From Candidatus Pelagibacter sp. (lineage in GTDB: Bacteria > Pseudomonadota > Alphaproteobacteria > Pelagibacterales > Pelagibacteraceae): a stretch of DNA of 41,038 nucleotides. Within the stretch, counting starts at the first letter, position 1, and each line of letters starts with the position of its first letter. Below the pieces are notes generated by a model, which ran no database searches, had not been told where the DNA came from, and saw only the letters and a program-made list of their open reading frames with translations. This document shows, piece by piece, positions 23,692 through 25,931 of this stretch. The position numbers were made by a program, and so were the translations under genes. Where the stretch lies: the NCBI GenBank assembly GCA_002689925.1, contig NZIO01000041.1, positions 1 to 41,038 on the forward strand, in the 5' to 3' direction.

Positions 23692-24393
23692 TTGAATAAT
23701 TTAAAAGAAATTAAAAAGGTTAGTTTATGGATCTTTATAATACCTTTGTTGGCAGTTAATATATGCTGGTTAATAGTCACTCATCATCAATATTTTACAG
23801 AAACATTGTTTGAAGTAGACCATGTAAGTAGACTAAATTTTACCATTCCCTACTTGAGTGGTGAATTTTCGATAAGCAGAAGCGCTAGAGTATACCCCAG
23901 TTATCTAATATTTAAACCAGCTATGATATTTACAGCTTTTCTACTTATTAAATATTGGATTTATAACTCTAGATTGTTTAGTTCTCTTGATTCACACTCT
24001 TCGCTTATAAAATATTTTAGATTTTTTGGTATAGCTTCTGCGGTATTCTTGGTTTTGCACTCTATATTTCTAGGTGTTAACATTGATATGGAAATATATA
24101 AGTTTTTTAGAAGATTTGTGCTTTTGTCTTTTATAATTTTTGAATTAATAGCTCAAACTCTGCTTGTAATAAATTTTATAAAATTTAAAAAAAATATCAA
24201 AAATTTATTCAGGCAATGGGTTTTAAATATAAAAATTTTTTTAGTAATAACATTAATTATTGTGGCTTTAGTTACTATTCCTATATTGTCTTCTTCTGGA
24301 TTTAAAGATTTAAAACATATCTTAGAGTGGAACTACTTCGTGGCTATAATAAGTTTTTACTTTCTTACATTTTTATTTTGGAAAAAAAAGTAA
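23692..24393 (+). CDS. multi-pass membrane protein, possibly Frag1/DRAM-like
   Basis: A 233-aa protein read from a TTG start, with about six hydrophobic helices (around residues 11-30, 71-90, 108-127, 140-162, 182-203, 214-230). The long first loop between helices 1 and 2 contains RLNFTIPYLSGEFSISRSARVYP, loosely resembling the Frag1/DRAM/Sfk1 pattern of a polar ectoloop followed by five helices. That assignment is weak. It may be co-transcribed with the basic microprotein. The hairpin at 24415-24450 lies shortly after the stop. Confidence 0.65.
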   Translation: MNNLKEIKKVSLWIFIIPLLAVNICWLIVTHHQYFTETLFEVDHVSRLNFTIPYLSGEFSISRSARVYPSYLIFKPAMIFTAFLLIKYWIYNSRLFSSLDSHSSLIKYFRFFGIASAVFLVLHSIFLGVNIDMEIYKFFRRFVLLSFIIFELIAQTLLVINFIKFKKNIKNLFRQWVLNIKIFLVITLIIVALVTIPILSSSGFKDLKHILEWNYFVAIISFYFLTFLFWKKK

Positions 24394-24414
24394 ATTTTTA
24401 GAAGCTTCTTTAGG

Positions 24415-24450
24415 TTAGCGGTAGATTAAGTCTCCCGCCTCTACCGCTAA
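24415..24450. repeat. perfect 11-bp inverted repeat downstream of the membrane protein gene
   Basis: The arms TTAGCGGTAGA and TCTACCGCTAA are perfectly complementary around a 14-base loop that is unusually GC-rich for this genome. It lies 21 bp after the membrane-protein stop. It could act as a plus-strand transcription end, although no T-run follows directly, or as the 3' domain of the minus-strand RNA candidate at 24545-24720. Confidence 0.7.
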
Positions 24451-24544
24451 AGTCATCATATATGAGTCGCTATAAAAATTATTGTAATAAATTTTAATTA
24501 AAGTGCTTAAGATTGGTAAAATATAATTTGAATTTTTGCCCCTA

Positions 24545-24720
24545 AAAAACCAAAAGACTATGTAGGTTTCCCTACATAATCTAAAAGTTTGAGACGCTGT
24601 TGAAGTACTACCTTCGTCTCGCCGCAAAAGGTGGTTAGTACTACTACCTTTCACTTTCTGCCCGTTAAATTTGAACCTCTCGGTTTTTCTTTAACTGGCC
24701 AGTTAAGAGTTGCCTCTTAA
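24545..24720 (-). ncRNA. candidate structured non-coding RNA of unrecognised class
   Basis: A gene-free stretch with far more structure than other spacers. Read on the minus strand: a 7-bp hairpin at 24703-24720 with a GCAA loop; a long stem at 24658-24702 (CTGGCC.../...GGGCAG plus GTTAAA/TTTAAC) capped by AACC-GAGA-GGTT; a stem GAGACG/CGTCTC at 24591-24620; and a 12-bp hairpin at 24555-24582 with a GAAA loop, followed by the T-rich run CTTTTGGTTTTTT. All three tetraloops are GNRA only on the minus strand, which sets the direction. The last hairpin plus T-run may be the terminator. I could not match it to tmRNA, RNase P, SRP, 6S or 5S RNA. Confidence 0.55.
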
Positions 24721-24815
24721 TTAATTACATTACATCACAATACAATAATATTAGCTATCACTTTATAGTTGAGTTTAAAAAAAAAAGATTGTTGTTAATT
24801 GTGTGGATAAATAAT

Positions 24816-25931
24816 TCAGTTAGTTTGCTCTATCCAGCCTCCTCCTAAAAGTTTATCCCCAATTTTATTTTTAGAGTAAAAAACACACGCTTGACCAGGA
24901 GAAACACCATTTTCTTTTTGTTTTAATAAAACTTTAGCTTTGTCATTTTTTATTTTAACTTCAGCTTTTAATAGTTTTCCAGTAGATCTAACTTTTATAA
25001 ATATCTCTGAATTTTCTTCATTAAAACTTTCTAACAGATTTAAATCTTTTAAATAAATATTATTAATTCCTAATGCACTTTTGGGACCAACAATTATTTC
25101 ATCTTTCTGAGAATTTATTTTTATAACATAAAGAGGTTCTTTATCTGATATTCTAATACCTTTTCTTTGCCCTATAGTATAATTAATTATACCTTCGTGT
25201 TTTCCTAAAATTTTATTATTTAAATCCACTATATTTCCTTCTTTAAAAGACTCTGGTCTATATTTCATTATAACAGATGCATAATCACCATTAGGAACAA
25301 AACAAATATCCTGACTTTCAGGTTTTTCAAACACATTTAATTTTAGTTCTCTAGCTATATTTCTTGTTTCTTTTTTTGTTATTTTTCCCAAAGGAAATCT
25401 CAAATAGTTAAGCTGTTCTTGAGTGGTATTAAATAAAAAATAACTTTGGTCTTTTGTAATATCTGTCGCTCTATAAAGTTCGCCATTCTCTTTATTTTGA
25501 ATTCTATTTACATAATGCCCGGTAACTAACGCATCTGCATTTATTTCTTTTGAAAATGAATATAAATCTCTAAATTTTACAGATTTATTACACTGAACAC
25601 AGGGTATTGGTGTTTCACCAGAAATATAACTATCTACAAAATTATCTATAACATCCGTTTTAAACTTTTTTTGGTAATATAAAATTTTATGAGTTATATT
25701 TAGCTTGTTAGCAACTCTTTTAGCATCCATTATGTCTTGACCGGCACAACATTGTCTCGTGGATTTAGTTTTTGTGTCATCATAAAGTTTTAAAGTCACA
25801 CCTATAACATTATAACCTTCTTTTTTCATTATTCCTGCTACTGTTGAAGAATCTACTCCACCAGACATAGCCACAACTACTTTTGTGTCTTTAGGTATCT
25901 TTTCAATGTCTATAGAATTAATTTTTTTCAT
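24816..25931 (-). CDS. mnmA: tRNA-specific 2-thiouridylase MnmA
   Basis: A 371-aa PP-loop ATPase that installs the 2-thio group on U34 of Lys, Glu and Gln tRNAs. The SGGVDSS ATP motif lies near residues 24-30. The first catalytic Cys is in [12 protein letters not shown] (about 102-113) and the second in [12 protein letters not shown] (about 203-214). GHYVN, DQSYFLF and the C-terminal SPGQACVFY and LGGGWIE segments complete the match. Sulfur would come from a desulfurase relay encoded elsewhere. The structured RNA candidate lies downstream on the same strand. Confidence 0.95.

Follow-up and report, generated by a model that had tools for sequence, protein, structure and literature searches.

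The structured RNA encoded on the minus strand at positions 24589 to 24727 of the window, the 41,038-nucleotide stretch of Candidatus Pelagibacter DNA analyzed here, is almost certainly IMES-2, an already catalogued RNA family, as judged from its match to the Rfam model. To the known features of this family we add a kissing contact between two loops, a promoter element, a terminator, the distribution of the RNA, and its gene neighborhoods. IMES-2 is a noncoding RNA of SAR11, bacteria that are abundant in the ocean. We take its source to be Weinberg et al. (2009, Nature). The literature on SAR11 or marine RNAs that we searched did not name IMES-2.

Results

The RNA lies in a gap of 422 bp (24394 to 24815) that separates two convergent genes, encoding a 233-aa membrane protein on the plus strand and mnmA on the minus strand, and the initial annotation had described this gap as gene-free. 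Using cmscan, we found that Rfam family RF02035 (IMES-2) matches 24589 to 24727 on the minus strand over the complete model (positions 1 to 141), with 126.1 bits compared to a gathering score of 54.7 and an E value of 2.7e-32. Our own models R1 and R2, the latter built in this analysis from 25 sequences, gave 136 and 133.5 bits, respectively. The initial annotation had considered the RNA unassigned, a view that it was prepared to give up upon a confident Rfam hit. The Rfam search that it proposed returned exactly such a hit, and a permissive scan of 24300 to 24900 revealed no other Rfam family up to an E value of 1. Its statement that the RNA is none of tmRNA, RNase P RNA, SRP RNA, 6S RNA, and 5S rRNA holds: tmRNA, RNase P, SRP, and 5S rRNA had no Rfam match at the IMES-2 site, 6S RNA (RF00013) was not found in 24300 to 24900 at E ≤ 1, and ARAGORN detected neither a tRNA nor a tmRNA anywhere in the window, this site included. 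The RNA thus combines a score above the gathering threshold over the full model with compensatory changes in the hairpins and a SAR11 host. Its hairpins and conserved letters are like those of RF02035, and none of its features falls outside the range of the family.

In agreement with this, the minus-strand RNA of 24540 to 24735 had a predicted folding energy of −62.1 kcal/mol, compared to −40.5 ± 4.0 kcal/mol in dinucleotide shuffles (z = −5.5), and none of 200 shuffles folded as well as the native sequence. A 79-aa open reading frame on the minus strand (24415 to 24654) overlaps the IMES-2 RNA; we treated it as a chance frame and not as a real gene.

The five Rfam hairpins of IMES-2 are backed by covariation in 90 distinct relatives. 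In an alignment of these sequences that was fitted to the structure, 95.0% of the cells were in standard pairs and 36 of the 44 pairs, the proposed kissing helix included, showed two-sided changes. None of 500 shuffles attained these pairing and two-sided-change values, and pairing fell to 34 to 41% when the partners were shifted by one to three columns. Similarly, an independent MAFFT alignment of 19 sequences was 95.6% paired and contained 26 pairs with two-sided changes, again counting the kissing helix. Compensatory changes, which the initial annotation had proposed to look for in relatives, are therefore seen in the sets of 90, 25, and 19 sequences, strongly so in the first and the last. 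Hairpin 1 (24703 to 24720, minus strand as for all hairpins) has 7 bp and a GCAA loop; it was paired in 100% of the cells of the 90 sequences, with two-sided changes in 5 of 7 pairs. Hairpins 2 and 3 (24658 to 24702) consist of an outer helix with an internal loop and of a closing hairpin with a GAGA tetraloop, with 95% and 94% of the cells paired, respectively, and two-sided changes in 13 of 15 pairs. Hairpins 4 (24624 to 24654) and 5 (24591 to 24620) both carry a large loop and showed two-sided changes in 8 of 8 and 7 of 8 pairs, respectively, with 99.6% of the cells of hairpin 5 being paired. All three GNRA loops that had been read on the minus strand are present, GCAA in hairpin 1, GAGA in hairpin 3, and GAAA in a 12-bp stem at 24555 to 24582. 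The chain of hairpins described at the outset is likewise real as far as the named hairpins are concerned, but it lacked the two large-loop hairpins, which are those carrying the kissing contact. Its span, 24545 to 24720, takes in the terminator (about 24544 to 24588), which lies downstream of the Rfam model.

A perfect 11-bp inverted repeat, TTAGCGGTAGA...TCTACCGCTAA, is located at 24415 to 24450, just past the plus-strand gene, and had been put forward as a possible additional 3' domain. The repeat itself exists, but it is not part of the RNA. Indeed, its arm was present in no IMES-2 locus of any other genome in the set, and the repeat occurs only once in its own genome and had no above-chance match in 40 related ones. 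Being private to this genome, it was ruled out as a 3' domain.

Covariation indicates that loops 4 and 5 of IMES-2 pair with each other as a kissing interaction. In the window, both loops contain the sequence AGUACU (24637 to 24642 in loop 4 and 24604 to 24609 in loop 5, minus strand), and these two stretches are complementary. The general motifs are AGNNCU for hairpin 4 and AGNNCN for hairpin 5. In the first set of sequences, the loops covaried and their inner five pairs were complementary in 25 of 25 cases, through the loop 4/loop 5 combinations GCGC/GCGC, GCAC/GUGC, GUGC/GCAC, GUAC/GUAC, and GUUC/GAAC. Furthermore, the innermost four pairs were complementary in all 97 loci having both loops. 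One group with UCGC/GCGC loses the outer G-C pair, and one of its members regains pairing via UCGC/GCGA. On a tree built without the kissing columns, the kissing state changes about 10 times. When the kiss alone was evaluated in the 25 sequences, 18 cells showed two-sided changes, compared to 5.3 in shuffles, and none of 500 shuffles reached this value; the number of pairs with two-sided changes, two, was not unusual compared to the shuffles. The contact is absent from the printed Rfam structure line for RF02035. Because such lines carry no pseudoknots, the contact may already be known and may predate the present description.

The kiss could in principle join two molecules, so that IMES-2 would be a small RNA-only homodimer or ring, which on our analysis of the loops appears quite unlikely. 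Hairpins 4 and 5 are separated by a joint of 4 to 5 nt in nearly all sequences, and the intermolecular reading is entertained because this is sterically tight for a straight coaxial kiss of two 8-bp stems within a single molecule. It also draws on the nonpalindromic variants, in which each of the two loops is complementary to the other one and not to itself. A side-by-side kiss inside one molecule is the simpler reading.

Conserved flanking sequences suggest that IMES-2 is a free-standing gene with its own putative promoter and terminator. Upstream of the RNA, we identified a conserved −35-like element, TCAACNNNAAAGTGATA. In 94 of 99 loci, its GTGATA begins 33 to 36 nt ahead of the RNA. In the window, this element (element B, TCAACTATAAAGTGATA, 24756 to 24772, minus strand) occupies the −35 position of the putative promoter; the −10 box shows only loose conservation, and the window's own copy is ambiguous. 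Within the window's genome, the element B pattern has its one exact match at the IMES-2 site, and an exact element B was absent from genomes without IMES-2 and present in G061, an IMES-2 carrier. The alignment of 25 upstream regions additionally revealed a DnaA-box-like element A further upstream (TTATCCACACAATTAACA, 24793 to 24810, minus strand), which is kept in part of the family, is degenerate in genus g4, and has a single exact match in the window's genome. In this same interval of the window and at the corresponding place in most mnmA-linked loci, the conserved sequence TTATCCACANNATTNACA, resembling a DnaA box, was observed about 65 to 85 nt upstream of the RNA. A regulon sharing element A or B was considered and rejected, the non-IMES-2 matches in the window's genome being no commoner than those of a reversed-pattern control.

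On the downstream side, the 12-bp stem with the GAAA loop is followed by TTTTTT and forms a predicted intrinsic terminator (24544 to 24588, minus strand; −18.5 kcal/mol). In 87 of 92 distinct loci, the RNA was directly followed by a stem of 8 bp or more and then by a T-rich stretch, in good agreement with the earlier suggestion that the last stem and its T-rich run may end the transcript. Taken with the Rfam match, the folding energy, and the covariation, this supports the strong minus-strand structured RNA with a terminator that had been proposed from the letters.

The promoter element, the RNA, and the terminator are kept together in at least five gene neighborhoods: mnmA with a membrane protein gene, as in the window; a tyrosine recombinase with an O6-methylguanine-DNA methyltransferase (MGMT); DUF2938 with MGMT; an SNase-like protein with SRAP; and SelO. 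Because the two flanking elements travel with the RNA across these neighborhoods, we consider IMES-2 to be its own gene and not a leader or tail of mnmA. In genus g4, a divergent tyrosine recombinase gene (Phage_integrase, PF00589) lies about 350 bp from IMES-2 at some 30 loci in addition to L118 and L132. Since integrases often take RNA genes as attachment sites, IMES-2 may mark an island boundary there. Carriage by phages was rejected: the only viral contig with a conserved 19-mer of IMES-2 carries this 19-mer within a gene for a tail protein and gave no model match.

Within SAR11, IMES-2 is not universal but restricted to a single family. It was detected as a single-copy gene in 25 of the 61 related genomes, each of them a member of the window's family, and 200 of 397 genomes from the order had a match to model R2, with one family accounting for all the matches listed. 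In a sample of 385 genomes from the class, RF02035 had no match outside the window's family. Similarly, in a scan of public genomes with the 19-mer, all matches among those listed came from Pelagibacteraceae/Pelagibacterales (SAR11). Several complete genomes of the same family lacked IMES-2 even with a wider model and laxer filters, suggesting that its role is dispensable or is done otherwise in some genomes. A diverged IMES-2 in the apparently lacking genomes was rejected, since these searches gave chance-level matches only and no exact element B. In two complete genomes without IMES-2 (G003 and G066; loci L144 and L145), apparently the same convergent gene region follows mnmA within a few dozen bases, as a clean excision of the RNA gene would leave it.

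Discussion

We propose, with a probability of roughly 0.6 for the explanation as a whole, that IMES-2 is its own transcription unit, folds into five hairpins with a kiss, and acts in trans by binding protein. Judging from the conserved sequence, minus-strand transcription would start from a promoter immediately upstream of 24727 and would end at the RNA's own terminator near 24545. The resulting RNA of about 140 nt would fold into the five hairpins, and the kissing large loops of hairpins 4 and 5 would lock the 3' half into a compact shape. Abundant regulatory RNAs act in trans by binding protein or ribonucleoprotein complexes, and IMES-2 most likely does the same. We infer this from the use of its conserved letters, which lie mostly in helices, in the kissing loops, in the small GNRA loops, and in short purine-rich joints, leaving no long exposed conserved stretch.

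The absence of such a stretch may also be compatible with antisense action through a short seed, and an antisense small RNA whose exposed loop nucleotides pair with target mRNAs is the first alternative to be weighed. A free-standing unit with a putative promoter and terminator of its own would suit it, as would the few conserved unpaired stretches that are left, the 5' leader and the AGAAA joint among them. However, the most strongly conserved loop sequences pair together and co-change, which an mRNA target would not readily allow, and the conserved runs that stay unpaired span only a few bases each. We therefore regard antisense action as unlikely.

Binding of RNA polymerase by IMES-2 in place of 6S RNA is an improbable alternative to protein binding of another kind. 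Like IMES-2, 6S RNA is free-standing and measures 140 to 190 nt, and the Rfam 6S model had no match in 61 genomes of the SAR11 order, or in 10 genomes at E ≤ 10, while the same search recovered 6S RNA in the E. coli, B. subtilis, and Caulobacter controls. Within this order, 6S RNA is thus either lost or too divergent for the Rfam model, and indeed this model may miss divergent members. Against a replacement, IMES-2 and 6S RNA share no sequence or model match, and five short hairpins with a kiss differ from the fold of 6S RNA, a long bulged rod. Furthermore, the genomes without IMES-2 also lack a 6S match, so that the two RNAs do not show complementary distributions.

Action in cis, with IMES-2 as a 3' untranslated region element or a riboswitch of either mnmA or the convergent gene for the membrane protein, would account for the location of IMES-2 just downstream of mnmA in 44 of 99 loci, including the window, but it is very improbable, since more than half of the loci have other neighbors while promoter, RNA, and terminator stay joined, and since the next gene at the mnmA site is convergent. 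A part of a replication origin, as TTATCCACA upstream of many loci and a DnaA-box-like element A beside a structured RNA might suggest, is scarcely credible: in G009, a complete genome, the minimum of the cumulative GC skew is at about 160 kb and the maximum at about 772 kb, whereas IMES-2 lies at 303 kb, about 143 kb from the minimum in this one genome, its site has no DnaA-box cluster, and other loci carry a degenerate element A. The two skew extremes of G009 (contig 1) are half a genome apart and are likely the origin and terminus of its chromosome.

A kissing contact is not peculiar to IMES-2 among bacterial structured RNAs. OLE, ROOL, and GOLLD, whose function is unsettled, have intermolecular kissing loops, and GOLLD is credited to the 2009 Weinberg paper (PMC12286853). 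Kissing loops are common to all of these RNAs and IMES-2, but IMES-2 is far smaller, and its kiss is known from sequence covariation. Presumably, IMES-2 has the same 2009 paper as its source.

Identifying the RNA as IMES-2 keeps it from entering the literature as a new one, and both its promoter element and its kissing contact offer concrete sites to mutate or probe. SAR11 bacteria, which rank among the most numerous marine bacteria, possess few protein regulators. Because of this, a free-standing structured RNA that is kept in much of one SAR11 family and lost in some of its members makes a good target for study.
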